The notes under the pieces were generated by a model. That model worked only from the letters and a program-made list of their open reading frames with translations, was not told the DNA's origin and searched no databases. A stretch of 49,319 bases of DNA, from the NCBI GenBank assembly GCA_937921825.1, contig CAKZVK010000102.1, positions 1-49,319 of the forward strand, given 5' to 3'. A program made the position numbers and the translations under genes. Source of the DNA: an uncultured Saprospiraceae bacterium. Its GTDB lineage: Bacteria > Bacteroidota > Bacteroidia > Chitinophagales > Saprospiraceae. Positions within the stretch are counted from its first letter, which is position 1, and each line of letters opens with the position of its first letter. Shown here piece by piece: positions 7,019-40,576 of this stretch.

Positions 7019-8344
7019 CTATATATGGTTATTGATTATATTCTCTAACAATTCCTGCTGTCCACTAATTTGTTCAGGCTCTCCTCTCTTTAAGGCCAGC
7101 TCAGCTAAGTCCTTCAGACTTAATTGCCCCTGCTCGAAAGCTTTACCTTTTCCCCTATCAAAGGAAGCATAACGTTTCTTCCGTATCTTCTTATAGTCAG
7201 AATTCTTTAGCACTTTCTCTGCTGTAAGTAATGCACGTGCAAAGGCATCCATCCCACCGATATGGGCATAGAACATATCTGTAAGATCTGTAGAATTACG
7301 TCGGACCTTTGCATCAAAATTAATGCCGCCCCCTTGTAAGCCTCCAGACTGCAGGAGTACCAGCATAGCCTGTGTCAGTTCAAAGACATCCATTGGAAAC
7401 TGATCTGTATCCCAGCCATTCTGATAGTCTCCTCTATTAGCATCCATAGAGCCTAGAGCCCCTGCATCAGCCGCGACTTGTAACTCATGCTCAAAAGTGT
7501 GGCAAGCTAAGGTCGCATGATTCACCTCAACATTGATCTTGAAGTCTTTAAGCAAATCATATTGTCTTAGAAAACCTAATACTGTAGCACTATCAAAATC
7601 ATACTGATGCTTAGAGGGTTCCATAGGTTTAGGCTCGATAAAAAAAGTGCCTTTGAATCCTCGACTTCTCGCATAGTCTCTAGCTTTGTGAAGGAACATC
7701 GCAAGATGTTCTTGTTCCCTTTTCATATCAGTATTGAGTAAAGACATATAGCCTTCTCTACCACCCCAGAATACATAATTCTCTCCGCCAAGTTTTATAG
7801 TAGTGTCTAGAGCATTCTTGACCTGACCCGCCGCATAGGACACAACGTTGAAATCAGGGTTGGTAGCTGCACCGTTCATATAACGTGGGTGACTAAAGAG
7901 ATTAGCAGTACCCCACAGTACTTTTATTTTGGCTTTATTTTGTTTTTCTAGCGCATACTTTGCAACTTTCATTAAGCGCTTTCTACTTTCTGCGAGGTCG
8001 CTGCCTTCATCTACCATATCTACATCATGAAAGCAATAGTACTTTACACCTAGCTTCGTCATAAACTCAAAAGCTGCATCGATTTTATCTTTGGCCCTCT
8101 GGACTGGATCAGTGGCTGTATTCCAGGGCAAGTGCCTAGTTCCTGGGCCAAAGGGGTCTCCTCCTGTGTTGCAGAGGCTATGCCAGTAAGCAATAGCAAA
8201 TTTGAAGTGCTTCTCCATAGTCTTACCCATGACCTTCTTTTTTGCATCATAGTATTTGAATGCTAAGGGGTCTTTTGATTTTGGCCCTTTATACTTTACT
8301 GCACCTACTCCTTTGAAGTATTCTGTTTCGCCTTTCAGTATCAT
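7019..8344 (-). CDS. xylA: Xylose isomerase
   Basis: A protein of 441 residues, normal for class II xylose isomerases. It interconverts D-xylose and D-xylulose in the cytoplasm. The catalytic pair is H106/D109 (CFHDVD). Predicted metal ligands are E237 (FIEPKP), E273 and H276 ([16 protein letters not shown]), D301 (GSMDANRGD), D312 and D314 (WDTDQFP) and D344 (INFDAK). The WGGREGY signature is at 193-199. It is the last gene of the xylan operon and starts 19 bp after the stop of xylB. The leader is AT-rich without a Shine-Dalgarno site, as usual in this phylum. No terminator could be identified in the 66 bp beyond the stop. Confidence 0.97.
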
Positions 8345-8363: not shown

Positions 8364-10295
8364 TCAAATGTTTGCAAAAAATGCACTCAGTGAAGTGCCT
8401 TTAGGTAAATCTAACTTCTGTCGAAGTCTATATCTTTTTGTCTCTGCACCTCTATAAGAGAGATTAAGTTCCTCTGCTATTTGTTTCGTTGAAAATTTCA
8501 TATGCAGAAAATACCCCAGCTTCAGTTCTTCGTAACTCAGCTCAGGGTATTGTTTTTTTATTTGCTCTACGATAGGGTTAGACATCAAAGTTGTATGGTC
8601 TAATAATTCTATGCTTTTCTTAGAGTCTATTTGCTTGAGCAGCTTAGGCAAGGCATCAGAGCTATGATCTAGTTGTAATTTATTAAGTGTCTTTTTTATA
8701 GATTCTAATTGCTTCTTCTGCACCTCTAATAACAAAGATTGTTGTGCTATTAACTTATCCTTCTGTTCCAGCTCACTAGCTAAGGTATTATTAGAAGTTG
8801 ATTTAGAATCAGAACCTAGCAATTCACTAAGTGCTTCCTTCCATGAGGTATAGGCCTTCTTATACTCGCTGTAATTAAGATCGGGCTTGTACACCTTCTT
8901 GGCTTTCAGACTAGACATCACTTTCCTGATAGACTTATAATATCCGCTGCCATGGCCTGATGCCAGCGCTGCTCCTACTGCACCTGTAGTATTCACTACT
9001 TCTAGGTCTATACCTAAAAGTGTTGCGATTGTGGTAGAAAAAACCTTAGACTGAAACATATTATCATCTCCTACTCTAAGTTTTTTTATCTCTATACCAA
9101 GTTCTTGCAGTATGTGTATTCCATAGACGAAAGTAAATGCGACACTTTCTATCGCTGCTCTATAGATATGGGCTCTGGTATGTCTATTGAATTCTAGATT
9201 GCGAATATGACTTTCTAGGTTTCTATTATTAAATATTCTTTCAGCGCCATTACCATACGGAAAAATACAAACACCTTCTGCACCTACTGGTACACCGGCA
9301 AGCATGCGCTCCATATCTTCATAGCTACGGCCAGATAGGGCTATTTGACTTCTCAGCCAGCTATATTGAATACCAGCGCCATTGATACATAAGAGGACAC
9401 CTATCCTATTCTTCTTGTTACCATGATTAACATGCGCAAATGCATTTATTCTAGATTGCTTATCATTGACTGATTTATCCACTACACCGTATACGACCCC
9501 TGACGTGCCGCAGGTTGCTGCAATTTCGCCTGGTTCTAGTACATTTAGAGCTAAGGCATTATTAGGTTGATCACCAGCACGATAAGCAACCTTTATGCCT
9601 GCTGTGAGTCCAGTTTCTTCTGCCGCTACTTCTGAGACCAGTCCTGATACTGAAAAAGTCGGCTTATACGCAGGGATCAGGTCAGCACTGATACCATAAT
9701 AGTCAAGCAACTTATATGCTAATTTATTTTCCTTAAAGTTCCATAAGACACCTTCAGACAGTCCAGAGATGGTCGTACTTAGTTCGCCAGTAAGCTTCAT
9801 AGCTATGTAATCTCCTGGCAATAATACCTTAGCTATCTTGTCATAGACGTCTGGCTCATTGTCTTTGACCCATTTCAATTTGCTGGCTGTAAAATTTCCT
9901 GGAGAATTCTGATAATTATCCAAACAAAAATCTGGGCCCAATGCCTCGAAAGCCTCCTCTCCAAGTGAGACAGCACGACTATCGCACCAGATGATCGAAG
10001 GCCTCAGGACCTGATTATCTTTATCGACCACGACCAAGCCATGCATCTGATAACTAATGCCAATAGAAAGAATATCCGAGCTCTTTACCTTTTGCTTTTC
10101 GAGTATCTTTTTGGTCCCTAGACACAGATAGCGCCACCATAGTTCTGGCTGCTGCTCGGCCCACCCTTTCTGACGAGATATCATATCCATTTCGATATCA
10201 GGATACTGCACGACATCCACGACCTCTTTAGTCTCAGCGTGGACGAGTGCCGTCTTGATCGAAGAACTTCCTATGTCATATCCTAATAAATACAT
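8364..10295 (-). CDS. xylB: Xylulokinase fused to a C-terminal coiled coil and LuxR-type helix-turn-helix
   Basis: A protein of 643 residues; ordinary xylulokinases have about 480-500. Residues 1 to about 492 are a complete FGGY kinase: DIGSSS at 7-12, QMHG at 83-86, WCDSRA at 103-108, the GDQPNNA motif with catalytic Asp242, and ATCGTSG at 260-266. It phosphorylates D-xylulose with ATP. Residues about 503-545 form a Gln/Leu/Lys-rich coiled coil. Residues about 575-643 match the terminal HTH of Bacteroidota TPR and Y_Y_Y regulators (YPELSYEELKLGYFLHMKFS, then TKQIAEELNLSYRGAETKRY, then RLRQKLDLPKGTSLSAFF). The frame is open throughout and the extension has the same codon style as the rest, so this looks like a real fusion rather than a read-through. 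It lies 30 bp after the GH3 gene and 19 bp before xylA. Kinase assignment is firm. DNA binding by the tail is inferred from similarity to the family. Confidence 0.93.
   Translation of the reverse strand: MYLLGYDIGSSSIKTALVHAETKEVVDVVQYPDIEMDMISRQKGWAEQQPELWWRYLCLGTKKILEKQKVKSSDILSIGISYQMHGLVVVDKDNQVLRPSIIWCDSRAVSLGEEAFEALGPDFCLDNYQNSPGNFTASKLKWVKDNEPDVYDKIAKVLLPGDYIAMKLTGELSTTISGLSEGVLWNFKENKLAYKLLDYYGISADLIPAYKPTFSVSGLVSEVAAEETGLTAGIKVAYRAGDQPNNALALNVLEPGEIAATCGTSGVVYGVVDKSVNDKQSRINAFAHVNHGNKKNRIGVLLCINGAGIQYSWLRSQIALSGRSYEDMERMLAGVPVGAEGVCIFPYGNGAERIFNNRNLESHIRNLEFNRHTRAHIYRAAIESVAFTFVYGIHILQELGIEIKKLRVGDDNMFQSKVFSTTIATLLGIDLEVVNTTGAVGAALASGHGSGYYKSIRKVMSSLKAKKVYKPDLNYSEYKKAYTSWKEALSELLGSDSKSTSNNTLASELEQKDKLIAQQSLLLEVQKKQLESIKKTLNKLQLDHSSDALPKLLKQIDSKKSIELLDHTTLMSNPIVEQIKKQYPELSYEELKLGYFLHMKFSTKQIAEELNLSYRGAETKRYRLRQKLDLPKGTSLSAFFANI
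8367..8543 (-). other. LuxR/GerE-like HTH domain at the C-terminus of xylulokinase
   Basis: This segment encodes residues 585-643 of the xylulokinase fusion. The recognition region is STKQIAEELNLSYRGAETKR, followed by YRLRQKLDL and SLSAFF. It has the order and spacing of the C-terminal HTH seen in Bacteroidota sensor-regulators (KEIAxxLNISxRxVExxRYRLRKKLGL...LxxFL). The coiled coil just before it (about 503-545) is also typical of those regulators, where it allows dimerisation. Confidence 0.8.
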
Positions 10296-10325: not shown

Positions 10326-12497
10326 TTACTTCACCTTTATCTTAACTGAACTCCACTGAGGAGCCCCTAATGCGAGAGCCCTTTGCATAGGTGCAGAAGA
10401 GGAAATCATAAGCTCATACTCCCCTTTCTCTAACTGTAGATCACCCTTAGAATCATAGATACTAAAAGCTTTGTGGTCTAGTTCGAAGACAACTTCTTTC
10501 TCGCTACCAGGTAGCAAATTCACCCTCTGAAAAGCTTTGAGTGAATAATTAGGGTCACGGTCAGCTTTGTTAATCTTAGAAACATAGACTTGTACAACTT
10601 CTTCTATGGGCATAGTTGCCTTACTTGAAATCGGTACAGACACCTTGAGTACATCCTTTTTTCTGATTTTACTTTTATTGACTTTAGCTTCTCCATAAGT
10701 CAACTGCGCATAATGGAGTCCGTAGCCAAATGGATACAAAGGCTCCTTGTCCATATAACGATAGGTCCTACCTTGCATATTATAATCTCCGAACGGCGGC
10801 AAGTCTTCTATACTCTTAACGAAAGTCACTGGTAGTTTTCCTGAGGGGCTAGCCTTCCCAAAGATTATATCTCCCACAGCTTGGCCTCCTTGCTCACCAG
10901 GATACCAAGCATACAGTATGGCATCTGCCATCTCATGTACTTCTGGAATAGATATAGCACTTCCGCCTGTAATGACAACAATAAGTTTTTTTGCTTTCCC
11001 TCTCAGTAACTTAAGATATTCTATTTGATGTGGTGGCAAGGTAATATACTCTCTATCTCCATAAGTAGCAGACGCTATAGCTTCTCCTTCTTCCCCTTCT
11101 AATAACTGAGTGATTCCCATACATGCGATGGTCACATCTGCCACCTCCGCCTCTTCTGAGAACCAGTCCATAGGATTGACATTCGGTCTATCTAGGAGAT
11201 TACCTTGCACATATCTTATAGCCGTATGATCTGAAACATTAGAAGCGATACCTTCTAGCATCGTACGCATGTCATCACTTATTCCAAAGTAATTGGCCAG
11301 TAAGGCTTGTGCATCTGCAGCAGTCGGTCCAGTAACAAATAAGTTTCTAAGATTTGGATCTAAGGGGAGGGTTTCATTATCATTTTTTAGTAGAACGATA
11401 GACTTCGCAGCAGATTCATAGGTAAGATCTAGATGTTCTTGTGATCTGACGACCTCTGTTGTGATTTTATCATAGGGCACTGCCTCATCGAACAGGCCTA
11501 ATCTAAATCTAGTAGGTAATAGCTCCTTCAAATTTTTATCTACCGCTTCCTCAGTAGTCAGGCCTGCTTCTATAGCTGCTTGTATTTCTGGGTAGGTATT
11601 ACCACAATTAAGATTGCAACCATATTTGAGTGCTAGTGCAGCAGCCTCCTTTCTATCCTTTGTCAGACCATGTCCCTCAAAGAAATCTTGTAAAGCCCAG
11701 CAGTCAGAAACAAAATACCCTTTGAAGCCCCACTTGTCTCTAAGTACATCTTGCATTAAATAAGAATGGGCACAACAGGCTTCACCATTCGTTCTATTGT
11801 AGGCTCCCATTACGCCTTCTACTTTAGCTTCTTTGACCAGAGCTTCAAAGGCCGGTAGGTACGTATTCCATAAATCATAATCAGAGACCACAGCATCGAA
11901 AGTATGTCTATCCTTTTCTGGACCACTATGTACAGCAAAATGCTTGGCCATTGCCGCAACTTTGAGGTATTTATCATTGCCCTGCAGACCCTTTACAAAA
12001 GCGACTCCGATTCGGCTGATGAGGTGTGGGTCTTCGCCATAAGTTTCTTGGCCTCTACCCCAGCGAGGATCTCGGAATAGATTCACGTTAGGAGACCAAT
12101 AAGTCAGCCCTGCGTATCTATCCATGTATCCTGTTTTCTTATTAGCATTGTACTTTGCTCTACCCTCTAACGCAATGGCTGTACCTATTCTATGCATCAG
12201 ATCTACATCGAAAGTTGCTGCCATTCCTATCGCTTGGGGAAAGACTGTTGCCCTACCGTTCCTTGCTATTCCGTGAAGACATTCATTCCACCAGCTGTAG
12301 TGAGGAATACTTAATCTAGGAATGGCTGGTGCCTCGAACATTAACTGACCTGCCTTTTCGTCCAATGTCAGTTGGCTGACTAAATCTTCTACTCTATCTG
12401 AGATAGTCTTGTTTGAATCTAAGAAAATAGGCCTTTGCTCTTGAGCAAAAGACATAGAGGTAGCTAGCACTAGAGCTACAATAGCATAGAGTCTCAT
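10326..12497 (-). CDS. GH3 beta-xylosidase / beta-glucosidase, exported
   Basis: A protein of 723 residues with a signal peptide (MRLYAIVALVLATSMSFA). It has no lipobox and no T9SS domain, so the periplasm is the likely location. The N-terminal TIM barrel carries WWNECLHGIAR (69-79), TVFPQAIGMAATFD (84-97), a KHF motif at 185-187 and the nucleophile region YFVSDCWALQDF with Asp265. The second alpha/beta sandwich domain (about 365-560) includes GDREYITLPPHQ. A C-terminal fibronectin III-like domain covers about 640-720. The SDCWA and WWNECLHG patterns are typical of GH3 beta-xylosidases, and with the GH10 and xylA/B neighbours the likely job is release of xylose from xylo-oligosaccharides. A beta-glucosidase side activity cannot be excluded. 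It starts 10 bp after the GH10 stop. Confidence 0.9.
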   Translation of the reverse strand: MRLYAIVALVLATSMSFAQEQRPIFLDSNKTISDRVEDLVSQLTLDEKAGQLMFEAPAIPRLSIPHYSWWNECLHGIARNGRATVFPQAIGMAATFDVDLMHRIGTAIALEGRAKYNANKKTGYMDRYAGLTYWSPNVNLFRDPRWGRGQETYGEDPHLISRIGVAFVKGLQGNDKYLKVAAMAKHFAVHSGPEKDRHTFDAVVSDYDLWNTYLPAFEALVKEAKVEGVMGAYNRTNGEACCAHSYLMQDVLRDKWGFKGYFVSDCWALQDFFEGHGLTKDRKEAAALALKYGCNLNCGNTYPEIQAAIEAGLTTEEAVDKNLKELLPTRFRLGLFDEAVPYDKITTEVVRSQEHLDLTYESAAKSIVLLKNDNETLPLDPNLRNLFVTGPTAADAQALLANYFGISDDMRTMLEGIASNVSDHTAIRYVQGNLLDRPNVNPMDWFSEEAEVADVTIACMGITQLLEGEEGEAIASATYGDREYITLPPHQIEYLKLLRGKAKKLIVVITGGSAISIPEVHEMADAILYAWYPGEQGGQAVGDIIFGKASPSGKLPVTFVKSIEDLPPFGDYNMQGRTYRYMDKEPLYPFGYGLHYAQLTYGEAKVNKSKIRKKDVLKVSVPISSKATMPIEEVVQVYVSKINKADRDPNYSLKAFQRVNLLPGSEKEVVFELDHKAFSIYDSKGDLQLEKGEYELMISSSAPMQRALALGAPQWSSVKIKVK

Positions 12498-12507: not shown

Positions 12508-14625
12508 TTACTGTATGATTAATTTCTTTGTGTAATCCCCGCCTGGTGATTGTATTTTTAGGATATATGCTCCTGATGGCAAATCTACTTTTTGTTTGGC
12601 ATTGGATCTCACTTGCTTTTTGTCATAAACTAACTGCCCACGACTATCATAGATAGATAGATCTACAAAAGGGAATCTATCTGGAAACTGTAAGCTGATC
12701 GTATCGTCAGTTACAGGATTAGGAGATAAGATAAATTCTGAAGTATCTAAATTACTGGTAGCATCTAGCTTACCCATCACGACTTCAATGTCTTGATCTC
12801 CATCGAGAAAGACCTCTACTTCAGTTGTTTCTGAGTCCTTAGTAACTGTAATTATATGCTCACCTTTGAATGGTCTAAAACTGGTCTGACCTACCGCATT
12901 AGACAACTTCTCTTCCTCTGTCCACCAATCATTAAAGACTTTCTGGATAAACATTTCTCCAGATGGTTTCAATGTCCAGTCTTCTTCAAACATAGGTGCA
13001 TTAGCCTTCCAGTGATTACCATCCCAAAAACCCCACATTATAAAGGCATCCATACCTGGATGGCTAAAAGTCAAGGTTAGAAAATCTCGCATATACTGTG
13101 CTTGTATACCCTCATCCACCGCATTATTAATATCATACTCTGTGACTTTCATACGTTTTCCATATCGCTGATAGAAGTCATCAAATATTTTTTCTACTTG
13201 GGGAATAGAATTAGGGACAGAACCGATATGGCATTGAAAACCAATTCCATCAAAAGGTACATCATCATTTTTGAGTTCATCCAAAAATGATTTGTATCGA
13301 GCAATCTGACTAGCAGAGCCACTCGAGATGGCCATGTAGTCGTTTATATAAAGTTCTAATTCAGGATCTAACTCTCTGACCTTTCTGAACACTTCAGCAT
13401 ACCACTCTCTTCCTGTTTCAAAATTTGGATCATTTCTAAACGATTCTTCCAAGGTTCTATTCGTAGTAATTTCGTTCAGGACATCCCAGTCTCTTACTAT
13501 CTTACTCAATCTAGGATGCTCTATCATCTCCTTTATTCTGGCATCGATTCTTTCTCTTAGATAATCAAGATCATTTAGTCTTCCCTTGATATCATCTGGC
13601 AGATAAGATTGACCTGGCCAAAAGAGATTGTGCCCTCGCATCTTAATGCCACTATCATGCAGATACTGAAACGCATTAACGGTTTGTGTAGGGGTGCCTA
13701 ACCACTGCTCTTCCCATCCTCTCCATTTCAGCGCATTCTCATTTACACATTCATTGAATCCATGACCCTCACCATCTAAGTTGAATACCTTTTCTACATA
13801 GGTCTGGTCAAAACAATTATTGCCCGGAAATCTACAAGTAACTAAGGCAGATCCAAAGCCGAAAGCATGCTTCTGCATATCTACATTTACTGTAGCACCT
13901 TCTACAGGATTGCCATCAGCATCTACAACATTGACTACGAGGTCTGACTTACGTAAGCTTTCTATTCTACTTTCTGCCAAGGCTCTCCAGGGTGCATCAG
14001 CTTCTATGCCTTCATAATTAAATGGCGAAAAACTAGTAGGCATATCCTCTACTCCATAGGTATCTTTATAATTCAGTGCGGTAAATCCAGCAATCGATAT
14101 ATCTTGAGCTTTAGCTGCTAGATGGAAGCCCGCTTTCAATCTCCTAGGAGCAAAGCTCTGAGTAGAATTATAAGCAATATAATATTGATTCCAATCTGGT
14201 GTTAAGTTCAGTGCGAAATAAAATTGCTTATCAAAATCTAATGCATCTTCTGCAAAAACAAATACTTGGGAATTAGGAATATTTTCTTTAGCCCAAAAAG
14301 TAATCAGAACTAAATCTCCTTCGCTGACCGCAGAATTAGTTTCTTGTCCCATCCCTACATCCCAGGCATTGGCTCCTGCACTACTGACGACTATATTATT
14401 ACTCATGGTAAAATCCATGTTCGACTCAGTGGTATTAGTAAAAGTCGCATTGCCATAACGGTACCCTTGTGATAGTAGCCCAGCTTCGGTATCAGAGAAC
14501 AAAAACTGCCCCCCTTCTATACCGTAGTTCAAGGACAAGTTCTCCAAGACACTTAGATGATAAGCATCTTGCGATATACCTGAGTAACTGAGTAAAAAGA
14601 AAAATAGTATGGCAATATATTTCAT
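12508..14625 (-). CDS. GH10 endo-1,4-beta-xylanase with N-terminal binding domain and T9SS sorting domain
   Basis: A protein of 705 residues. Signal peptide at 1-18 (MKYIAILFFFLLSYSGIS). Residues about 25-188 form a beta-sandwich resembling the CBM4/9/22 group. Residues 225 to about 580 are the GH10 catalytic domain, beginning with the usual LVVNVVDADGNPVEGATV strand. The general acid/base is Glu385 (WDVLNE) and the nucleophile Glu496 (KVTEYDI); GHNLFWPGQ at 331-339 and the FIMWGFWDG strand are also present. Residues about 632-705 are a T9SS C-terminal domain (FILSPNPV, LSIYDSRGQLVY, SGAYILKI). The enzyme is predicted to act on xylan outside the cell. It follows the five-module binding protein after a 53-bp gap that contains a strong hairpin. 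Confidence 0.95.
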   Translation of the reverse strand: MKYIAILFFFLLSYSGISQDAYHLSVLENLSLNYGIEGGQFLFSDTEAGLLSQGYRYGNATFTNTTESNMDFTMSNNIVVSSAGANAWDVGMGQETNSAVSEGDLVLITFWAKENIPNSQVFVFAEDALDFDKQFYFALNLTPDWNQYYIAYNSTQSFAPRRLKAGFHLAAKAQDISIAGFTALNYKDTYGVEDMPTSFSPFNYEGIEADAPWRALAESRIESLRKSDLVVNVVDADGNPVEGATVNVDMQKHAFGFGSALVTCRFPGNNCFDQTYVEKVFNLDGEGHGFNECVNENALKWRGWEEQWLGTPTQTVNAFQYLHDSGIKMRGHNLFWPGQSYLPDDIKGRLNDLDYLRERIDARIKEMIEHPRLSKIVRDWDVLNEITTNRTLEESFRNDPNFETGREWYAEVFRKVRELDPELELYINDYMAISSGSASQIARYKSFLDELKNDDVPFDGIGFQCHIGSVPNSIPQVEKIFDDFYQRYGKRMKVTEYDINNAVDEGIQAQYMRDFLTLTFSHPGMDAFIMWGFWDGNHWKANAPMFEEDWTLKPSGEMFIQKVFNDWWTEEEKLSNAVGQTSFRPFKGEHIITVTKDSETTEVEVFLDGDQDIEVVMGKLDATSNLDTSEFILSPNPVTDDTISLQFPDRFPFVDLSIYDSRGQLVYDKKQVRSNAKQKVDLPSGAYILKIQSPGGDYTKKLIIQ

Positions 14626-14678: not shown

Positions 14679-17633
14679 CTAATCAATAATCAATTTGCTG
14701 TAAAATGCAGGTTGTCCATCCAAGGTTACATGCATAATATACAAGCCCGGTAGTAAGTTAGCAATATCTATTGCTTGACTGACTTGGCCTTTAGTTTGGA
14801 GCCCTAGTTGTTGAGTTTTCATAACCTTACCTGTGGCATCCAGAATCGTAGTCCCTACGAGACCTGTCGTATTAGTATTCATATCAAGATATAGTTCCTC
14901 CTTAGCTGGGTTAGGAAATATTCTTGCAGAATTTACCTGTTCTTGATCGATGACATTTACAGAGAATGGTGTCCCGAAAGTGAACCAATCTATATGTAGC
15001 TCTCCATCAAAAGCGCCAATGCCAGGATTAATATAGAACTGTACTAAATCGATACGTTCTGAATCTACTGGACAAGGACCTGCACTACATGCCGTCCCTC
15101 CAAAACCACCATCCGTGTACTGACCTGTATAATCATACTCATACACTTCAAATTCAGTAGTCAGGGCCTGAGTCAACCCAGCTTGAGAGGTCAAGAATCC
15201 TGCAGCATCTTGAAGATCTATTCTGAGTGGAAGACCGTCTACTGTAGATCGTGCTCTGATATAGACCTTATCACTATTGGCCTGACTATTAACGATAACA
15301 TCTTCTGCGCCTACATGGAGGTCGTAGAGTACTGGGCTAAAAGCCCCACTTGTTCCATCACCAATAATTTTTAACTGTCCATTCTCTGCAGTAAGGGCTA
15401 GTCCGTCATTATCAGAAATGAACTCTAAAGAATCATCATCCTTTGCATCCCGGTACTCATCTATTCCTAGTGGACCAGAGTTATCTATAGTTTCTATTGG
15501 CTCTATTGTAGATATCCAATCTATAGTCATGGTTCCTGCGTACCCTCCATTATCTGGGTCTATGTATACCAAGAGATTAGTTATAGCTGAGCCGTCTACT
15601 GGACATGGTCCTGCATCACACGATGTACCTCCATAACCACCATCACTATAGGTGCCTGTATAATCGAATTCTAGTACTTCATATTCTTCTCCTACTACTC
15701 TAGAAGTAGCTGGTTCAGTAGTCGCAAAACCTCCCTCATCTAAGAGATCTATTCTAAGAGGCGTACCTGCCACTGAGGATTTTACTTTAACATATAATTT
15801 GTTGTTAGAGGCTACATTGACTACCAGTGGTGTACCTGCATCTGTATCGTGTAAGGTATAACTAAAGGCTGCATACGGCCCAGCAGTTCCATCTCCAGTA
15901 AGTACTAGTTCTGTTCCTGATTCCTCGACAGTAAATCCTCCTGCATCTGCCCATTGGTCTCTATTGCTATTTTCAAAATGGTCAACATATTGCTGTACAT
16001 CTTCTCCCATCGCAGCACCAAAAGAAACATAGTCTATCTCTATACAACCTTGAAATCCTCCATCTGCAGGATTAGGATAGAAGAGTACCGTTGCTATAGC
16101 AGTCGGGTCCACCGCACATGGGGCTACATCTGCCTCACAAGGAGTGCCTCCATAACCTCCATCTATATAGTTACCAGAAAAATCCAGTTCTAAGACGGCA
16201 TAATCTGATTCTAGCAATCTAGTAAAAGAAGGAATCGTCGTCACAAAACCTGAGGTATCTACTAGATCTACTCTAAGTAGAGTATTAGCAGCATCAGCTT
16301 TAGCTCTTATAAACACTTTATTATTGCCACTGACATCTACAAAGCCTGCTTCACCTGTATCCATATCATGCACTGTATAGGCAGCTGCTGCAAAAGGAGC
16401 ATCTATTCCAGTGCCTGTAATCTTAAATGTAGACGCTGCGACAGAAAGTCCAAAAGCTGCTGAAGTGGACACATATCCCTCTCCGCCACTGAAGTGGTCA
16501 CCATACACTAATACATCACCAGTGCCAGAACCGCCCTCAAGACTTGTCCCCACAGACACATAATCTATCTCTATATCTCCTACGAATGCTCCTGAACCAG
16601 GATTTACGAACAGAATAAAGTTAGCGATTCGTGAGCCATCTACTGGGCATGGGGCTTGGTCAGAGGAACAACCCGTACCACCAAAGCCTAAGTCAGAATA
16701 ACCTCCTGCAAAATTATATTCATAAGTCGTCCACTCTTCTGTAATAGCCTTAGTTACACTGGCAGCAGTTGTCGCCATATCATTGACATCTTGCAAGTCC
16801 ACACGTACAGTAGTACCAGGTGTATTTGTTTTCATTCTGATAAAGACTTTATCCTGACCATCAGCAACAGGTATATCAATTGTATCCTTTGTCGTTGCAT
16901 TAAAAAACAACATATTCACAGGATCCCACATGCCACCTGTTCCATCTCCAGATATCACCCAGTTAGAATTAGAAATACTATTTGAAAGGCCAGGTGTCGA
17001 TGAATTTAGAAATCCTATCAATTCCCCATCATCAAAGTGATCTTGCCATACATCTGAGACTGGCCCTACTGAGGGTGCTGATCCTACTGATACAAAATCC
17101 AGAACGACTGAGCCACTAAAAGATCCTTGTCCGGGATTAATAAAAAATAAAAACTGTGTAATATTAGTAGGATCTACTGGACAAGGTGCTGTCGTAGCAT
17201 CACAAGGTGTGCCACCGAAACCACCATCACTGAGTACCCCAGTAAAATCAAACTCAAAGACTGTATAGTCACTGACTAAAGTTTTCGTAACGCTGCCTAT
17301 AGTCGAAGCAAAACCGTCTGCATCCTGTACGTCTAGACGTAACTGTGTACCTAGGTTACTGGCTTTAGCTCTTACATAGAGTTTATTATTTTCAGAGATA
17401 TCTAGAACTCGTGTCGTTCCATCATCATTACTTGGCTCTAAGGTAAATGGATCCCAAGGACCTGAAGTACCATCGCCAGTTATCGTCCATTCTCCATTCT
17501 CTTCTACACTACTATAACCAGCTGGCATTGTTGCATTGGTTTCGACACCATCATCAAATTCATCTAAATAAACTTGACCCATCAAAGGGACCAGCGCCAT
17601 TAAAAACATTAAAAGTGTAAAGATTTGTTTCAT
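14679..17633 (-). CDS. Secreted protein with five tandem Cys-containing beta-sandwich modules and T9SS sorting domain
   Basis: A protein of 984 residues. Signal peptide at 1-20. Five modules of about 165-170 residues follow at about 21-187, 195-364, 375-541, 547-711 and 725-890. Each has the order DxFDD or similar, GDGT(S/A)GP, NKLYVRAK, LRxDLQDAxGF, then a signature loop of the form (D/S)GG(F/Y)GGTxC...PCPVD, and ends with an IDxVSxG strand. The two Cys of the loop probably form a disulphide in every module. Residues 900-984 are a T9SS domain (ARIFPNPA, LDATGKVM, PGLYIMHV). The fold looks like a carbohydrate-binding jelly roll, but I do not recognise a named CBM family. Its place between the SusCD/TIG genes and GH10 points to multivalent xylan binding at the surface. 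No glycosidase motif is visible. Confidence 0.85.
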   Translation of the reverse strand: MKQIFTLLMFLMALVPLMGQVYLDEFDDGVETNATMPAGYSSVEENGEWTITGDGTSGPWDPFTLEPSNDDGTTRVLDISENNKLYVRAKASNLGTQLRLDVQDADGFASTIGSVTKTLVSDYTVFEFDFTGVLSDGGFGGTPCDATTAPCPVDPTNITQFLFFINPGQGSFSGSVVLDFVSVGSAPSVGPVSDVWQDHFDDGELIGFLNSSTPGLSNSISNSNWVISGDGTGGMWDPVNMLFFNATTKDTIDIPVADGQDKVFIRMKTNTPGTTVRVDLQDVNDMATTAASVTKAITEEWTTYEYNFAGGYSDLGFGGTGCSSDQAPCPVDGSRIANFILFVNPGSGAFVGDIEIDYVSVGTSLEGGSGTGDVLVYGDHFSGGEGYVSTSAAFGLSVAASTFKITGTGIDAPFAAAAYTVHDMDTGEAGFVDVSGNNKVFIRAKADAANTLLRVDLVDTSGFVTTIPSFTRLLESDYAVLELDFSGNYIDGGYGGTPCEADVAPCAVDPTAIATVLFYPNPADGGFQGCIEIDYVSFGAAMGEDVQQYVDHFENSNRDQWADAGGFTVEESGTELVLTGDGTAGPYAAFSYTLHDTDAGTPLVVNVASNNKLYVKVKSSVAGTPLRIDLLDEGGFATTEPATSRVVGEEYEVLEFDYTGTYSDGGYGGTSCDAGPCPVDGSAITNLLVYIDPDNGGYAGTMTIDWISTIEPIETIDNSGPLGIDEYRDAKDDDSLEFISDNDGLALTAENGQLKIIGDGTSGAFSPVLYDLHVGAEDVIVNSQANSDKVYIRARSTVDGLPLRIDLQDAAGFLTSQAGLTQALTTEFEVYEYDYTGQYTDGGFGGTACSAGPCPVDSERIDLVQFYINPGIGAFDGELHIDWFTFGTPFSVNVIDQEQVNSARIFPNPAKEELYLDMNTNTTGLVGTTILDATGKVMKTQQLGLQTKGQVSQAIDIANLLPGLYIMHVTLDGQPAFYSKLIID
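14964..17573 (-). repeat. Five-copy protein-coding repeat (about 500 bp units) within the binding protein gene
   Basis: Approximate unit coordinates: 17073-17573, 16542-17051, 16011-16511, 15501-15995 and 14964-15461. The copies are clearly homologous in protein but have diverged at DNA level, so the expansion is old and maintained by selection. Confidence 0.8.
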
Positions 17634-17649: not shown

Positions 17650-18756
17650 TTAAAGAATTTGTATAAATTTTAAGTTATCGATATTCGCTTCCATCTTTTG
17701 ACTGGAACCGAGCTCATTAAAAAGATGCAGTTTTATTGTTCTTAGTTTCTGAGGATCTGGTGTAGCCCCATTTATATCTTGGAATCGATTGAGTGGTATA
17801 CTTACAGTCTCCCAGCCATCCCAATCTAAACTTATCGTCTCTGTAAAATCATTGGGACTACCGCCTCTTTCCGCCAGCACCAAAATTATATGAGTATCTT
17901 TCTTTCCGTTAGAATTAAGATCCAGTTCTAGAAAAGTATCATTTAGATTACTTGTTATATCAAACACTTCAAAAACATTTGGGTCATTAGAATGACTCTC
18001 AGTACCTCCTACCCATATTCCTCCAGTATCAAAACCAGAAAGCTTCAAATAATTACCGTCAGTAGGCGCAGGTGACATAGAACCAACTGCAGTCATATTA
18101 TTCTGCTCTATCCCGCCATAGAAGAGCCACTTATTCGTTTCTGCACGGACGCCATTTCCATCAAAGTCATTGACCAAAAGTTCTGAAGTAGAAAAAAAAA
18201 GCTCTGGAGTAATTGAAGAACCACCATTCGCTTTTACTTTGATACGACCCTTTTCTACACCTGCGGGGACTTCTACGACCAAAGAGTCAGGTTGGTGATG
18301 AATTATATTCGCTGCAATAGAATCAAAAAATAAGACCTCCAAAGGTTCAAAGAAATTTTTCCCCAGAATAGTGACCCTATTGCCCTCGTTAGCAGACTTA
18401 GGATAAAAGTTGAAAACTGACGGCGCATCCAAAGTCACTCTAAAAGGAAAGGATGTTTCTCCATCTTCCGATACTATCATGATAGTATTATCTCCCACCA
18501 CCGCAGTAGGTGGTACTCTAAAAAGCAAAGCTGTCTCTGTACCAAAAGAAGGATTAAAATCAGCAGCGATTCCTTCATCAAAATCGATAGCAATCAAATC
18601 ATCAAAGCCTGAACCTTGCACTGTGATCAGCGTCTCTACAGGTCCAAAATCTGGTGTAAAACTTGTAACAGCTGGTGCTTCTCCAGTATTACAGGACATC
18701 ATCAAGCAAACTATGCCGACCAATGTTAATACGCTATAATTATTCTTCTTTGCCAT
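17650..18756 (-). CDS. Surface glycan-binding lipoprotein with two IPT/TIG domains (SusE/SGBP-like)
   Basis: A protein of 368 residues with a lipoprotein signal ending LMMSC (Cys22). Residues about 28-112 and 113-195 are two IPT/TIG immunoglobulin-like domains (VTSFTPDFGPVETLITVQGSGF; VFNFYPKSANEGNRVTILGKNF). The remaining 170 residues form a jelly-roll-like domain with Trp and Tyr residues suited to sugar binding (KWLFYGG, GGIWVGGT, WDGWETVSIPL, ANIDNLKF). This layout is that of surface glycan-binding proteins that follow susD in many polysaccharide utilisation loci. It starts 1 bp after susD stops and ends 16 bp before the five-module protein. Ligand specificity for xylan is inferred from context. 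Confidence 0.85.
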   Translation of the reverse strand: MAKKNNYSVLTLVGIVCLMMSCNTGEAPAVTSFTPDFGPVETLITVQGSGFDDLIAIDFDEGIAADFNPSFGTETALLFRVPPTAVVGDNTIMIVSEDGETSFPFRVTLDAPSVFNFYPKSANEGNRVTILGKNFFEPLEVLFFDSIAANIIHHQPDSLVVEVPAGVEKGRIKVKANGGSSITPELFFSTSELLVNDFDGNGVRAETNKWLFYGGIEQNNMTAVGSMSPAPTDGNYLKLSGFDTGGIWVGGTESHSNDPNVFEVFDITSNLNDTFLELDLNSNGKKDTHIILVLAERGGSPNDFTETISLDWDGWETVSIPLNRFQDINGATPDPQKLRTIKLHLFNELGSSQKMEANIDNLKFIQIL

Positions 18757-18757
18757 A

Positions 18758-20245
18758 TTAGTAACCTGGATTTTGAGTCAAGTTAGGATTAATGGCTAGT
18801 TCAGCAGCAGGTATCGGAAACAAGACATTGAAATCCTGAAACTGCTTACCATGCAGCTGCATGAGTTCTTTCACGCCACCCATTCTTAATAAATCAAACC
18901 ATCTATGATTTTCAAAAGCAAATTCTGCACGGCGCTCCTCAAAGACCATATCTATAGTCACATTACCCACTTCCAGCAGACCTGCTCGCTTTCTGACTTG
19001 ATTAAAAGCTTCTACTACATCTGGTGTAATGGTTATATCTCCATTTTGCCTACAAGAGGCTTCTGCTAGGGTCAGCAAGACATCAGCATACCTTATGGCA
19101 TGTTGATTCTGAGGAGTACTCATGAAGCAGACATCAGCGCCCCCTCCTATCACATACTTCTTTATATTTATGAGGCCTCTAGATGCCCCTGTAGCCGGGT
19201 AGGTATACCCTCCAGAACTTGCATTGATCATTGGGTATTCATCTCCAGCAGTCATTATAGAATGATACTTTCTCAGATCATTCTCTGCAAAGACATCTTT
19301 TATCGTAGTACCAGGGTTATCAATATTAGGTGCAGTCGGAATCTGAGAACCCCAGCCGTCAGTATTACCCGTTATAGCCTGCCCCCATGGTGCGAAGAAA
19401 GCCTGTAATGCATTTCCAGTATTGCCAGGACCACAACCTACATACTGGATCTGCCATACAGATTCAGCATTATTATCACTGACGTCACGTAACCAGTTAT
19501 TCTCAAAGGGCACCAGCTCATAAAAGCCTGAGCCGATAATCTCTCTGCACAACTCCATACTTTCATCATGTCGTCCTATCGTTACAAAAACCTTGGCCAA
19601 GATGGCCCTAGCAGCATGGCTTGTCACTCTACCATAATCAGAAGAAGGTCTGACCTCAGGGAGATCGCTGACTGCTATTTCTAAGTCACTGACAATAAAA
19701 TCATAGACATCCGTTACAGAGTCTCTGAAGACATTCAGATCAGCATCGTTAGTTGGCACTTCTGTAATAATAGGTACCCCCCCAAAGATTCTTACCAAAT
19801 CAAAATAACTGTAAGCTCTTAGAAATCTGGCTTCAGCTAGAATGCTTGCCTTTTGTATAGGGTCCATTTCCACAGGTGGAACAAAATTCAAAATCTGATT
19901 AGCCAAGATGACCAACTTAAAATGTTCTGTCCAGTACTCTAACACAGGAGCATTATCAGGACTCGTCGTAAAATTATCTATCGGCGAAAAATCTGGGTCA
20001 TTTCCACCTGTAGTAGTATTATCTGAAGGAATCTCTTCTATCATCCAGGACTTCCCTTTCCAATTTATGGCTTGGATAGCAGTATACATAGCCTTAGCTG
20101 CAAGGTCTGCTTCAGCAGCATTAGTATAGAAACTACTGGTTGTCAATTCATCCAAGGGTTCTCTGTCCAGAAAATCTTCACAGCCAGATTGGAAAAAGAC
20201 AGCGACCAACAGAATTATTAGTGTTTTTTTATGCATCATTTCCAT
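18758..20245 (-). CDS. SusD/RagB family glycan-binding lipoprotein
   Basis: A protein of 495 residues with a lipoprotein signal (FFQSGC, Cys22) followed by EDFLDREPLDELTTSSFYTN, the standard SusD start. TPR-like helices (LAEARFLRAYSYFDLVRIFGGVPIITE, around 135-160) and the C-terminal RRAEFAFENHRWFDLLRMG block with a PAAELAINPNLTQNPGY ending are typical of the family. It forms the lid of the SusC channel and captures oligosaccharides at the outer surface. The start could be Met1, Met3 or Met4. The gene is separated from susC by 3 bp, so the two are co-translated. Confidence 0.95.
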   Translation of the reverse strand: MEMMHKKTLIILLVAVFFQSGCEDFLDREPLDELTTSSFYTNAAEADLAAKAMYTAIQAINWKGKSWMIEEIPSDNTTTGGNDPDFSPIDNFTTSPDNAPVLEYWTEHFKLVILANQILNFVPPVEMDPIQKASILAEARFLRAYSYFDLVRIFGGVPIITEVPTNDADLNVFRDSVTDVYDFIVSDLEIAVSDLPEVRPSSDYGRVTSHAARAILAKVFVTIGRHDESMELCREIIGSGFYELVPFENNWLRDVSDNNAESVWQIQYVGCGPGNTGNALQAFFAPWGQAITGNTDGWGSQIPTAPNIDNPGTTIKDVFAENDLRKYHSIMTAGDEYPMINASSGGYTYPATGASRGLINIKKYVIGGGADVCFMSTPQNQHAIRYADVLLTLAEASCRQNGDITITPDVVEAFNQVRKRAGLLEVGNVTIDMVFEERRAEFAFENHRWFDLLRMGGVKELMQLHGKQFQDFNVLFPIPAAELAINPNLTQNPGY

Positions 20246-20248: not shown

Positions 20249-23200
20249 TTAAAAATTAACATTTGCTCCTATCGTAAAAGAGCTTGCAACAGGAAATCTA
20301 CCGTTGTCTACTCCATTAATAAGTGGATTCTGATTAAATGAGCCTATATCTGGATCGTACCCTGAATAGCCTGAAGCAGTAAATAGATTCTGTCCGCTTA
20401 CATATACCCGTAAGCTAGAGATATTTATCTTTTTCAATAATGATGCAGGCAATTTATATCCCAATGCAACATTTTGTAGTCTGACAAAGCTCCCATCTTC
20501 AATGAATCTATCCGATACCCTTCTATTGGCATTAGGGTCTATACCAGTAGCTCTAGGTTCCCTACCCTCTTGATTAGTCGGTTGCCATCTATCCTGGACA
20601 TCCACAGATTGATTATGCCATGCGCCAGTCCCTGCTATATCACGGCGCAATAAATTGTAAACTTCATTTCCAAAGACACCTCTAAAGAATACACTGAAAT
20701 CAAAATGTCCAATATTGACATCATTGATTAGATTAATGGTAAAATCTGGATGTGGACTTCCAATGAAGGTCCTATCCTCATCATTAATGACGCCATCATT
20801 ATTCAGATCCTCGAACTGCAAGTCACCTGCTCGAGTACCGACCTCCTGAAAAGCAGCCTCAGCTATTTCTTCAGAATTATTAAAAATACCCACGACCTTA
20901 TGTCCGAAATACTGACCGATAGGCAGACCTTCTTCTGTACGTGTGATAGGTAAGGCCTGCACAACACCGATAATGAATCCAGTGTCACCTAAGTCCACTA
21001 CCTCATTCCTGTTTATAGACAAGTTTGCCGATGTACGCCAATCTATCTTCCCTACCATATTCTGAGTCGTAAGGCTGAATTCCATACCACGATTATTCAT
21101 CCGACCTATATTAACAAAGGGTGGAGATAGGCTACCTGCAGTCGCTGGAAGGATAGACTCTAACAACATATCCGTAGAAGCTTTATTATAAAAATCTAAG
21201 ACCACTTCTACTCTATTATCAAAAAGACCTAAGTCTAAGCCTACATTAGTCTGGACTGAACTTTCCCATTTCACATCTGGGTTGGCAATATTAGCAGCTG
21301 TAAATGCTGTAGTTCTAGAGTTACCAATAACAACATCTACAGGTTGCAAGCGTGAAACAAAAGAATACAGACCAATCTCTTGATTACCTACAGCACCATA
21401 ACCTACTCTAAGTTTCATATTGTAGATAGACTTGAAACTCTTTATGAAAGGCTCATTAGACAATCGCCATGCTACAGCTACAGAAGGAAAATAGCCAAAC
21501 TTATTATTGGCACCAAAGCGAGAAGAACCATCAGCTCGTAGAGTTCCTGTCAAGAGGTATTTTTCATCATAGTTATAATTCATTCTACCGAAGTAAGATA
21601 GCAATGCCCAGTGACCAGCACCGCCTATCACATTCTGAGTCGCTGCATCACCCAGTACTAGTTCGCTAAGTGTATTAGTAGGAAGATTTTCCCTTACCGC
21701 AAATAACCAATCATACTTACCTTCCTGGGCTTCGAATCCTGCAAGGAAAGTCATTTTATTCTTGTCATTAAAAGCTTGATTGAAGGTCAGCAAGTGCTTG
21801 TTATTCCAGTAGGTATTATTGCTAGGGTTTCTTACGACCTTAGACTTTTTACTCTGCGTACCTCTATCGTAGGCTGGCTCAAAGACGTTATGATTGGAGA
21901 ACAGTAAGTCCGTTGCAAACTCTGTTCTATACTTTAGCCATGAAGTTAAATCTACTTCTGCATAGAGGCTTCCTAGTAACCTGGTCTTTGAATTTACATC
22001 ATTTACTTCCAAGGCATTCGCTAGTGGATTATCAAAGGTGAGTACAATATTCTCCCCCGTCGGTGCTACCCCAAACGAACCATCTAGTCTCCGTGCAGGC
22101 ACCATTGGTGGTGTCAGCAAAGCTGTATAGATGACCCCTTTGTCATTATCATTAAAAACAATATTCTCTCTAGTCTTAGCTACAAGCAGATTCATACCCA
22201 CTCTAAACTTTCCCAGATTCTGATCTAAATTTAGCCTGGCGCTGTATCTTTGGAAACTAGACCCTTGTACTATACCGTCTTTATTATGCGCTCCTAGAGA
22301 GGCGGCAAATCTAGTACCTTCAGACCCTCCAGACAAAGTCACTTGGTGATTGCTCATATTGGCCTCTCTAAATATGACATCTTGCCAGTCTGTACCATCG
22401 CCTAATAATTCTATCTGCTCGAACTCTTCTATATCCCCTATTGCTACTTGTGATACATATTCTGCATAATTAAAAAGATTCATCATCGGAATCTCTTTGT
22501 ATAATCGCTGCTGTCCCCAGTAAGTGTCATAACTTACTTTGGTCTTGCCTTGGACACCTTTCTTAGTGGTAATGATGACTACACCGTTTGCAGCACGTGA
22601 GCCATAAATGGCTGTAGCTGACGCATCTTTTAAGATCTCGATGGATTCAATGTCATTAGGATTAATTGTTGTCAGGGCATTTGTACTTTGGCCTTGACCA
22701 TCTCTTAGGTAAGAGGTACCACCGTTGTCACTACTGATGGGAATACCATCTACTACATATAAAGGTTCTGTAGATAAGGTACTACCTGAGCCTCTAATCT
22801 TGATAGACATAGAGCCGCCCGGTGCACCACTATTCTGAGTAATTTGTACTCCAGCACTTCTTCCTTGGAGAGCCTGCTCTAGTCCTGTATTAGGTAATTG
22901 CTTGAGTTCTTTTACACCTATACTTGAGATGGCGCCAGTAAGATCACTTTTCTTTTGTGATCCATAACCTACAACGACCACCTGATCTAGAACTGCGGCG
23001 TCTTTAGTAAGATAAATCGTCATCGATTCTGATTGAATAACAACATTCAGATCCTGATATCCAATGTAACTAATATCTAGTGAAGCAGCCTCAGCTACAT
23101 CAAGAATGAACTCACCATTAAAGTCAGTCACCGTGCCATTAACAGTACCCGATTCCATCACACTAGCACCTATGAGCGGTTCACTTGAGTCTCGATCTAA

Positions 23201-23323
23201 GACGACCCCTTTTACCTGGACCGATGCTTTTGGGGAGCTGGAAGCAGAAGCTACATTAGAGCAAAGAGTAAGTAAGAATATTACTATACAACTATAAACT
23301 TTGAAACTAATCGCTCTTGTCAT
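20249..23323 (-). CDS. SusC/RagA family TonB-dependent outer-membrane transporter
   Basis: A protein of 1024 residues. Signal peptide about 1-27; a carboxypeptidase-regulatory-like domain at about 34-108 (VKGVVLDRDSSEPLIGASV); the SusC family motif DQVVVVGYGSQKKSDLTGA at 113-131; plug domain to about 255 (IRGSGS, PLYVVDG, LKDASATAIYGSRAANGVV); then a 22-strand-type barrel ending in NVNF. With SusD it imports oligosaccharides using TonB energy. It is the first gene of the xylan operon. The predicted leader is about 140 nt, with a candidate promoter at 23471-23478. Confidence 0.96.
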   Translation of the reverse strand: MTRAISFKVYSCIVIFLLTLCSNVASASSSPKASVQVKGVVLDRDSSEPLIGASVMESGTVNGTVTDFNGEFILDVAEAASLDISYIGYQDLNVVIQSESMTIYLTKDAAVLDQVVVVGYGSQKKSDLTGAISSIGVKELKQLPNTGLEQALQGRSAGVQITQNSGAPGGSMSIKIRGSGSTLSTEPLYVVDGIPISSDNGGTSYLRDGQGQSTNALTTINPNDIESIEILKDASATAIYGSRAANGVVIITTKKGVQGKTKVSYDTYWGQQRLYKEIPMMNLFNYAEYVSQVAIGDIEEFEQIELLGDGTDWQDVIFREANMSNHQVTLSGGSEGTRFAASLGAHNKDGIVQGSSFQRYSARLNLDQNLGKFRVGMNLLVAKTRENIVFNDNDKGVIYTALLTPPMVPARRLDGSFGVAPTGENIVLTFDNPLANALEVNDVNSKTRLLGSLYAEVDLTSWLKYRTEFATDLLFSNHNVFEPAYDRGTQSKKSKVVRNPSNNTYWNNKHLLTFNQAFNDKNKMTFLAGFEAQEGKYDWLFAVRENLPTNTLSELVLGDAATQNVIGGAGHWALLSYFGRMNYNYDEKYLLTGTLRADGSSRFGANNKFGYFPSVAVAWRLSNEPFIKSFKSIYNMKLRVGYGAVGNQEIGLYSFVSRLQPVDVVIGNSRTTAFTAANIANPDVKWESSVQTNVGLDLGLFDNRVEVVLDFYNKASTDMLLESILPATAGSLSPPFVNIGRMNNRGMEFSLTTQNMVGKIDWRTSANLSINRNEVVDLGDTGFIIGVVQALPITRTEEGLPIGQYFGHKVVGIFNNSEEIAEAAFQEVGTRAGDLQFEDLNNDGVINDEDRTFIGSPHPDFTINLINDVNIGHFDFSVFFRGVFGNEVYNLLRRDIAGTGAWHNQSVDVQDRWQPTNQEGREPRATGIDPNANRRVSDRFIEDGSFVRLQNVALGYKLPASLLKKINISSLRVYVSGQNLFTASGYSGYDPDIGSFNQNPLINGVDNGRFPVASSFTIGANVNF

Positions 23324-23470
23324 GACTCTTGGCTGGTGAATATAATTCTGTCGAAGAAGTGATAGAAAAATTATATTCTGTAAATAAAATTAATTTGATT
23401 ACAAAATAGGGTCTTTCCGAAGACTTCTAAGATAAGAACAAAATTTAAAAACCCGACATTTACACTTCGT

Positions 23471-23478
23471 CAAACATA
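23471..23478 (-). promoter_or_regulatory. Candidate -7 element of the susC promoter
   Basis: On the minus strand the sequence reads TATGTTTG, an exact fit to the Bacteroidota -7 consensus TAnnTTTG. It implies a start of transcription near 23467. No TTG lies at the usual -33 spacing; that position is taken by an inverted repeat. This fits an activator-dependent promoter, but no start has been mapped. Confidence 0.5.
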
Positions 23479-23496
23479 CGTCATCACGTCATGTGT

Positions 23497-23519
23497 ACAC
23501 CATTGAAATTGGATGGTGT
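23497..23519. promoter_or_regulatory. Inverted repeat upstream of susC, candidate operator
   Basis: A perfect 7-bp inverted repeat with a 9-bp spacer (ACACCAT, then TGAAATTGG, then ATGGTGT). Its centre is about 41 bp upstream of the inferred transcription start, the usual place for an activator that touches RNA polymerase. Next to it, at 23478-23492, ACGTCAT occurs twice as a direct repeat. The first copy overlaps the predicted -7 element by one base. The binding protein is unknown; the HTH of the XylB fusion is a candidate. Confidence 0.5.
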
Positions 23520-23555
23520 TCTCTGTCATTCTACAGCTAGGACAGGCTACAGCTA

Positions 23556-39763: not shown

Positions 39764-39795
39764 AAAAGTAAAACGTGTATACAGTTATAAAGTTG

Positions 39796-40575
39796 CTACC
39801 TTTTTGATATTGAATTAGAAATATTCTGCCCAATTGTCTGCGCGATCATCTCATTTGTTCCATCTACATCTATACCCTCTAAGACTTTACGAGTATTTAT
39901 TAGAATCGGTAGTTCCCATGCTATGCCTGGTCGCAATTCTATATCTGCACTAAAGCCTACTTCTTGATTTCCTATCTCAGCTATAGGTAAGACTCTGATA
40001 CTATCATTTGTCTGGATTATGGAGCGACCATGCAGTAACAGCTCTGTAGAGTCTACATACATTTTCTCTAGCACCTGAGTGAGTCCAGAATTCTGATCTA
40101 GATCTTCGTAGGGACGTAACGCTAAGATGGCAGCTTTATCAAATCCAACCTGAAAGCTGACACTATCGAAAGTAACGACGTAATCTGTCTGGCCAATAAT
40201 CCTGTTTCTACCTGCTTTCTCTATGGTGAGATAATCGTCATAGAGTCTAGGTCGCTCGCCTTGTAGGGTATCTATAATTCTATATTCTTCACCATCATTA
40301 TAGAAGACAAACTCCGAAAAAACCAGATTTAGTTCTCGGATAGCAACACTATCATCTTCTGTAAAGGGGTATAGCCTATTAAAGGTTATCGGCTGAATCA
40401 AATCATAGGAGTAGACTGCATTAAGACTTACTCCTGGATAGACACAGCAGGAATCGCATTCCGTTACTGCAAATGGGTCATAGTTAGAAGCATTAAGTTC
40501 AAGGCAGCCTGGATCAGTAGATTCACAAGAATAAAAAGCCAAAAAGCCAACTGCAATGATGATGCTTCTTATCAT
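39796..40575 (-). CDS. MbnP-like lipoprotein, likely partner of the adjacent di-heme enzyme
   Basis: A protein of 259 residues from the ATG at 40575, which lies 1 bp after the exonuclease stop; a longer TTG start at 40596 is less likely because this ATG begins a proper lipoprotein signal (MIRSIIIAVGFLAFYSC, Cys17). After a Cys-rich segment (CLELNASNYDPFAVTECDSC) the body resembles the MbnP family: FTEDDSVAIRELNLVFSEFVFY, YRIIDTL, and VTFDSVSFQVGFDK. MbnP proteins are copper-binding, and one Trp is oxidised to kynurenine by MbnH. Only one Trp exists here (Trp220, in IAWELP). The family call is from pattern recognition and is moderately sure; metal ligands were not assigned. Confidence 0.65.
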   Translation of the reverse strand: MIRSIIIAVGFLAFYSCESTDPGCLELNASNYDPFAVTECDSCCVYPGVSLNAVYSYDLIQPITFNRLYPFTEDDSVAIRELNLVFSEFVFYNDGEEYRIIDTLQGERPRLYDDYLTIEKAGRNRIIGQTDYVVTFDSVSFQVGFDKAAILALRPYEDLDQNSGLTQVLEKMYVDSTELLLHGRSIIQTNDSIRVLPIAEIGNQEVGFSADIELRPGIAWELPILINTRKVLEGIDVDGTNEMIAQTIGQNISNSISKR

Positions 40576-40576
40576 C

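Follow-up and report, generated by a model that had tools for sequence, protein, structure and literature searches.

A xylulokinase with a fused LuxR-type DNA-binding tail as a predicted regulator of its own xylan operon in Bacteroidota

Few enzymes double as the transcription factor of their own pathway. The 'trigger enzymes' PutA, NadR and BirA are metabolic enzymes that carry their own DNA-binding domain; they come from other enzyme families than the protein described here and use other HTH or RHH types, and none is an FGGY kinase. ROK-family XylR repressors join a sugar-kinase-like body of the ROK fold, usually without kinase activity, to an N-terminal HTH acting on xylose genes. In yeast Gal1/Gal3 a sugar kinase serves as inducer sensor, either in a bifunctional state or as a paralogous sensor, but this system has a galactokinase fold and lacks a fused DNA-binding domain. 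Other known xylose regulators are AraC/LacI-type XylR proteins (PMC12125979) and Bacteroides XylR BT0791, a Nudix-related member of the NrtR family that regulates xylose genes (PMC3878776); the latter resembles the proposed role of our protein in being a xylose regulator of Bacteroidota, but is separate from the kinase. In the full-text literature, a scope beyond which most subscription papers and bioRxiv lie, we found no account of an FGGY kinase carrying such a tail, in line with the preliminary description of this locus, which knew of no example.

The protein is encoded in a 49,319-nt stretch of DNA from an uncultured Saprospiraceae bacterium (assembly GCA_937921825.1, contig CAKZVK010000102.1; hereafter the window, and its genome G000), the features of which are collected in Table 1. 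That a complete xylulokinase runs in frame into an HTH tail, as first noticed from the sequence alone, was borne out by Pfam and by structure models: one 643-aa ORF joins a complete FGGY xylulokinase through a long helix to a LuxR/GerE-type HTH. Both FGGY domains (FGGY_N, 2.4e-47, aa 2-245; FGGY_C, 9.7e-14, aa 259-446) and the catalytic Asp are present. The best NCBIfam family is XylB (TIGR01312) at 299.5 bits, under the equivalog cut-off of 380.25; because two unfused relatives are likewise under this cut-off (304.3 and 301.7 bits), a divergent XylB subfamily is likely. In the AF2 model of the full protein (32 sequences, mean pLDDT 81.0, pTM 0.71), the kinase's last helix continues unbroken into the tail, through a linker of low confidence, and is followed by the HTH helices. 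Foldseek matched the whole model best to the xylulose kinase 5vm1 (E 7.6e-36) and also to E. coli XylB (2itm, 1.4e-35). The fusion is like the E. coli enzyme (2ITM) in its fold and in the aligned residues around E. coli Met77-His78 and Asp233; it is unlike it in that E. coli XylB has no HTH and ends where the long helix of the fusion begins.

Table 1. Features of the window, and the tail-only proteins of a related genome (G054)
Feature	Position	Strand	Details	Basis
xylA, xylose isomerase	7019-8344	-	19 nt downstream of fusion	
Xylulokinase-HTH fusion gene	8364-10295	-	643 aa, ATG start	ORF call, Pfam, homologues
HTH helices	8412-8576	-	aa 574-628; invariant R615, G616, E618, T619, R621, R623	Alignment, models, Foldseek
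Helical linker	8670-8819	-	aa 493-542; runs on from last kinase helix (475-542); low confidence	Model
FGGY kinase part	8826-10295	-	aa 1-490; Met84, His85, Asp242, GTSG 263-266	Pfam, structure match, alignment
GH3 glycosidase	10326-12497	-		
GH10 xylanase with T9SS tail	12508-14625	-		
T9SS-tailed protein	14679-17633	-	984 aa, no role assigned	
Surface glycan-binding protein type	17650-18756	-	TIG, SGBP_B	
SusD	18758-20245	-		
SusC	20249-23323	-		
Predicted operator	23466-23485	-	TGACGTA (23483-23477), 4 bp, TGACGAA (23472-23466); 142 nt before susC	Motif models
Weaker second tandem pair	23485-23502	-	half-site offsets -19 and -8 from first	Mean over G000, G003, G228
Sodium:solute symporter gene	23556-25169	-	upstream of predicted operator	
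Histidine kinase	33444-35498			
Crp-type regulator gene	42391-43080			
Tail-only protein, G054	L046:8011-8544	-		
Tail-only protein, G054	L183:11739-12320	+		
Tail-only protein, G054	L184:9626-10153	+		

The profile search for the tail HTH was divided. In the window protein GerE matched aa 602-630 with an E of 0.011 and 15.8 bits, below the Pfam cut-off of 23.5 (Sigma70_r4_2 matched the tail at E 0.0041), yet 24/32 homologues have GerE at E<=0.01 (best 3.8e-06). Modelled alone, the 90-aa tail (mean pLDDT 90.8) matched, among the 50 PDB rows listed by Foldseek, proteins which we take from their names (DosR, LiaR, VpsT, RcsB and others) to be LuxR/NarL-type, with probabilities of 0.89-1.00 and a best E of 0.049, none at E<=0.001; by these names the predicted fold is a LuxR/GerE-type HTH. 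A spurious HTH is disfavoured by the family-wide GerE matches together with this fold. No ROK domain matched the fusion protein at E<=1, and its HTH is C-terminal rather than N-terminal; the parallel drawn earlier with ROK-family XylR thus holds for the logic, a sugar-kinase-like body with an HTH, but neither for the fold nor for the end that carries the HTH.

An assembly artefact is ruled out, and the fusion is genuine, as at least 33 full-length copies were found in 33 genomes when overlapping samples of 100 relatives, 398 family genomes, 298 order genomes and 395 class genomes were taken together. At least 31 belong to the window's family (398 genomes), one to another family of the order (G099) and one to another family of the class (G810). 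T9SS tails, SusC/D and the named relatives point to Bacteroidota for these genomes. Searches used the window protein as query except in the class sample, where a 32-row profile recovered the fusion in at least 2/395 genomes (G000 and G810). In a tree built from the kinase domains of 32 fused and 57 unfused proteins (a quick search without bootstrap, with G810 left out and the unfused kinases being those at the loci collected, a non-random draw), a single branch (SH-aLRT 98) sets all 32 fused kinases apart with one change, which indicates that one fusion event gave rise to all of them. None of the 89 kinases, fused or unfused, deviates at Asp242, Met84, His85 or GTSG.

The HTH, too, appears to be maintained. 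It is very improbable that the tail has no function or a purely structural one, as might be supposed from the weak GerE score in the window protein and from the linker between kinase and HTH, which varies in length and sequence among homologues. Six HTH residues (Table 1) are invariant in 32/32 fusions, a DNA motif is associated with the fused genes (see below), and G000 and G003 share 96% identity in the HTH, where dN/dS is ~0.01 (kinase 0.04) at a dS near saturation. In four other pairs the kinase is the more strongly conserved of the two parts, with dN still far below dS where dS was computable.

Besides the fusion, the only FGGY match in G000, a genome given as 96.5% complete, is GlpK. The fusion is the sole xylulokinase found there and, because no other was found, it should be active; phosphorylation of D-xylulose is suggested by this and by the adjoining xylA. 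The same gene order (SusC-SusD-...-GH10-GH3-fusion-xylA) recurs in G001, G003, G006, G228 and G282, as far as the contigs reach. Among the 31 fused-carrying family genomes, kinase matches at E<=1e-100 number one in 8 and two or more in 23. In such two-kinase genomes the fusion often lies upstream of xylB-xylA, SusC-SusD or GH3, with 129-515 nt to the next same-strand gene, and its upstream neighbours that were scanned are unrelated to xylan. Overall, a xylan or xylose gene lies within the stretch examined at 29/32 fusion loci (the exceptions are G054 and, on short contigs, G161 and G201) and xylA at 18/32, so that fused kinases do not always adjoin xylA, a point that the preliminary description had suggested checking.

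The genomes with a second kinase lend some weight to an alternative, which we regard as a serious possibility at somewhat less than even odds, that the fusion is a transcription factor and mainly a sensor: in two-kinase genomes it would bind sugar with little catalysis, as yeast Gal3 does, and catalysis would matter only where it is the sole xylulokinase. Position 12 in the phosphate loop points the same way, being Ser in 56/57 unfused kinases and 6/6 window-type fusions, with 23 of the other 26 fusions departing from it (17 Thr, 2 His, 2 Phe, 1 Ile and 1 Lys) and 3 having Ser, which hints that nucleotide handling may have changed in genomes with a second kinase. However, Thr at this position may be harmless, and none of the 32 fusions has lost Asp242 or any other residue checked.

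No regulator besides the fusion was found in Pfam scans of the gene run bounded by xylA (7019) and the symporter (25169), so that the earlier remark that the locus has no other regulator gene holds for this interval, although the window elsewhere has a Crp-type gene and a histidine kinase. The Crp-type gene, ~17 kb away from the xylan genes, closely precedes a PEP carboxykinase gene (43423-45042). Also encoded in the window are a metalloprotease-like protein that has a T9SS tail and eight MopE-type metal-binding repeats (28378-33138) and, some 5-10 kb past it, a MauG-type di-haem peroxidase and a weak MbnP match (38663-40596); these are possibly copper-related genes.

New in this analysis is a strong tandem motif common to the DNA flanking the fused genes, consisting of two TGACGTA half-sites at 11-bp spacing. 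A first EM set of 22 regions (19 gaps after the fused gene and the susC upstream regions of G000, G003 and G006; the near-duplicates G230 and G201 were left out of the motif sets) gave LL values of 65.9-115.6 over five widths, against 22.5-42.4 in Markov shuffles. A palindromic operator was considered and rejected, as symmetry had been imposed by these first runs and unconstrained models gave a direct repeat with fixed 11-bp spacing. Run separately on the before-gene and after-gene sets, unconstrained models returned the same tandem, TTTGACGTA-nnn-TTGACGTA, with an LL of 178.4 for 24 before-gene regions (62.0-66.2 in 3 shuffles) and 217.7 for 22 after-gene/before-susC regions (61.7-67.6 in shuffles); the after-gene region of G102 was bounded at the stop codon, and a perfect site overlapping that codon falls outside it. 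Cross-prediction by the two models reached p<=0.0099, the floor, in 19/22 and 16/24 regions, with one more at 0.02. There was no site in 7/24 before-gene regions (p>0.3), and the sites after the gene in G033 and G002 and before susC in G006 (9.4 bits) are weak. TGACGTA-N4-TGACGTA with at least 12/14 letters occurs at 11 bp in 37/48 regions, compared with 0-7 for other spacings from 8 to 30.

The position of the sites is also regular. Before the gene, 14/17 are at -1 to 24 nt relative to the start codon, which suggests autoregulation. After-gene sites mostly begin near the fusion stop codon; a weaker pair at +33/+44 accompanies some of them, with 5 and 8 of 17, respectively, exceeding 3 bits. 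TAnnTTTG-like words, resembling the Bacteroidota -7 element, often start about 19-22 nt past the downstream sites; we did not take them as proof of activation because these words coincide in part with degenerate third and fourth half-sites (+33 and +44).

The predicted operator of the window scored 17.4 bits by a model not trained on that site; as 60 shuffled 49-kb windows gave a mean of 10.2 and a maximum of 18.7 bits, the site alone is good but not decisive. The second model gave it 23.9 bits, a non-independent value since the site is in its training set. Only two tandem matches at <=1 mismatch occur across G000, one of them this site; G003 has a site before susC at the same distance as in the window, and held-out sites scored 21.8 bits before susC in G228 and 21.9 bits over the stop codon of the fused gene, before a SusC-SusD pair, in G810. 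The stretch suggested earlier for a gel shift (23460-23525) contains the predicted operator. No predicted site precedes the symporter's own start (-2.4 bits). The second G000 match (C101:29065-29082) is an 18-mer, TGACGTAGGGGTGACATA, that recurs at G003:C4:67614-67631 (L170, L171); lying outside ORFs of at least 100 aa, it is possibly a second target.

Several controls addressed the association of site and fusion, with a threshold of 14 bits that was chosen after the scores were seen. At the same loci, 2/209 upstream regions of other genes reach it (one shared with G106 xylB), and 19/89 upstream regions of xyl-type genes or fusion neighbours do so. Genome scans at <=1 mismatch gave 38 matches, 25 of which lie at the fused locus, across the 20 genomes with the fusion (reversed-pattern control 20), and 14 in 20 genomes without a detected fusion, one of them before xylB in G267 (reversed-pattern control 20). 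Unfused xylB genes had an upstream site of at least 14 bits in 9/15 genomes with the fusion versus 2/42 rows without it (one-sided Fisher 2.4e-5), 3 of these 42 rows being named contigs whose genomes were not checked for fusion status. One of the nine (G033) has its xylB on another contig than the fusion, and the other 6/15 have no upstream site.

These controls also bear on whether the TGACGTA tandem is bound by another regulator (Y_Y_Y, TPR, tail-only or an unrelated factor) while the kinase tail serves another purpose, which we consider unlikely. The sites before xylB in G267 (24.1 bits) and G014 (14.6 bits), where no fusion was detected, would fit such a regulator, as would the three tail-only proteins with similar helices in G054 and an EAS-type Y_Y_Y locus (L225) with 13/14 letters of the tandem; the sites could be common to other proteins with the same tail. 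Against this, the site occurs on both sides of the fused gene in many genomes and tracks the presence of the fusion, and the scanned neighbour clusters common to at least three loci are xylan/xylose enzymes, transporters, SusC/D and outer-surface proteins, with no other DNA-binding protein among them. The strong G267 tandem (L180:12082-12101, minus strand) lies just before the unfused xylB, beside which no tail gene was found; it may be a relic or a site used by another tail protein.

The tail itself is widely shared. In line with the earlier statement that the same HTH ends Y_Y_Y-propeller and TPR proteins, a tail profile found both kinds in nine genomes and also recovered receiver-like and PAS-like proteins (domains assigned by eye, except for L053). 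In G000 itself the fusion tail matches (E 1.5e-10) a 973-aa frame, G000:C147, a Reg_prop/Y_Y_Y protein that itself matches GerE at its C terminus. Such receptors have the same tail subfamily as the fusion, and one of their helix subgroups also shares the 11-bp tandem; the receptors differ in being propeller receptors with a membrane segment (by eye) rather than cytoplasmic enzymes, and in the half-site, TGATGTA. No other enzyme-HTH fusion was seen among 19 + 11 tail proteins read by eye, a non-exhaustive set. The three short G054 proteins (Table 1) have scarcely more than the coiled coil and HTH of the kinase tail family, and one adjoins the fused gene behind a strong site (23.5 bits); they are possible competitors or partners at the same operators.

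All 21 Y_Y_Y genes together had no clear upstream motif (LL 78.5 vs 63.6-70.5 in shuffles). At the six Y_Y_Y loci with the helix RGVEIS, a grouping set up after the first case (L053) was seen, TGATGTA-N4-TGATGTA with at least 12/14 letters precedes the regulator every time (p 0.003 each, the floor of 300 shuffles), compared with 0/15 loci with other helices, two of which reach 11. The L053 tandem (7099-7118, minus strand) is perfect, lies between a SusC/SusD locus and its Y_Y_Y regulator, and is probably the operator of that regulator. Since the RGVEIS loci and the fusions share this architecture, the 11-bp tandem seems to reflect how part of the tail family binds DNA. Residue 619 is Thr in 32/32 fusions and Ile in the RGVEIS group, and may read base 4 of the half-site (C or T); L225, whose helix is RGVEAS and which has the TGACGTA letters, means that such a code would not be simple.

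Considering the fusion's conservation in relatives and the matching repeated site nearby, the enzyme itself probably switches its own xylan genes. We place the probability at about three in four that the protein is a bifunctional enzyme-regulator, in which a sugar/ATP-sensing FGGY part drives the HTH on the tandem operator and so controls the SusC-to-xylA operon. The FGGY part would phosphorylate D-xylulose from the adjoining XylA and double as sensor: binding of sugar and ATP would close the kinase lobes, and the continuous C-terminal helix would transmit this change to the HTH, which on the operator before susC would control the operon including its own gene. In relatives with an extra copy, the sites directly behind the gene and ahead of xyl or SusC/D genes, together with those at its start codon, would serve control of the target operon and autoregulation, probably autorepression. 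Binding of DNA by the fusion protein itself, xylulose with or without ATP as the signal, and lobe closure as the switch are what we infer from these features, and activation of the target operon is only slightly favoured over repression. The idea of one protein as enzyme and xylan-operon regulator, raised in the preliminary description, thus gains support from the single origin, the conserved fusion and the kept catalytic residues, from its standing as the sole xylulokinase found and the regulator-like gene position in many other carriers, and from the tandem motif flanking the gene and before susC, whose 11-bp architecture recurs at six same-tail regulator loci.

With slightly less confidence, we also favour seeing in these proteins a new class of one-component regulator that uses a catalytically active FGGY kinase as its sensor: derived from one fusion event and found in at least three Bacteroidota families, it would act either as sole xylulokinase and regulator or as a paralogous regulator, would use the 11-bp tandem TGACGTA operator, and would have a residue 619 (Thr, vs Ile in RGVEIS) that goes with C or T at base 4. 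If true, FGGY kinases would join the enzymes that are transcription factors of their own pathway, and the series from a sole bifunctional copy to a paralogue beside a plain kinase would be a setting for asking how a catabolic enzyme turns into a sensor. For xylan loci with no hybrid two-component, AraC or Nudix-type regulator nearby, the tandem offers a concrete predicted operator, and it may be a first hint of the DNA code for the LuxR-type tail found on many Bacteroidota sensors.
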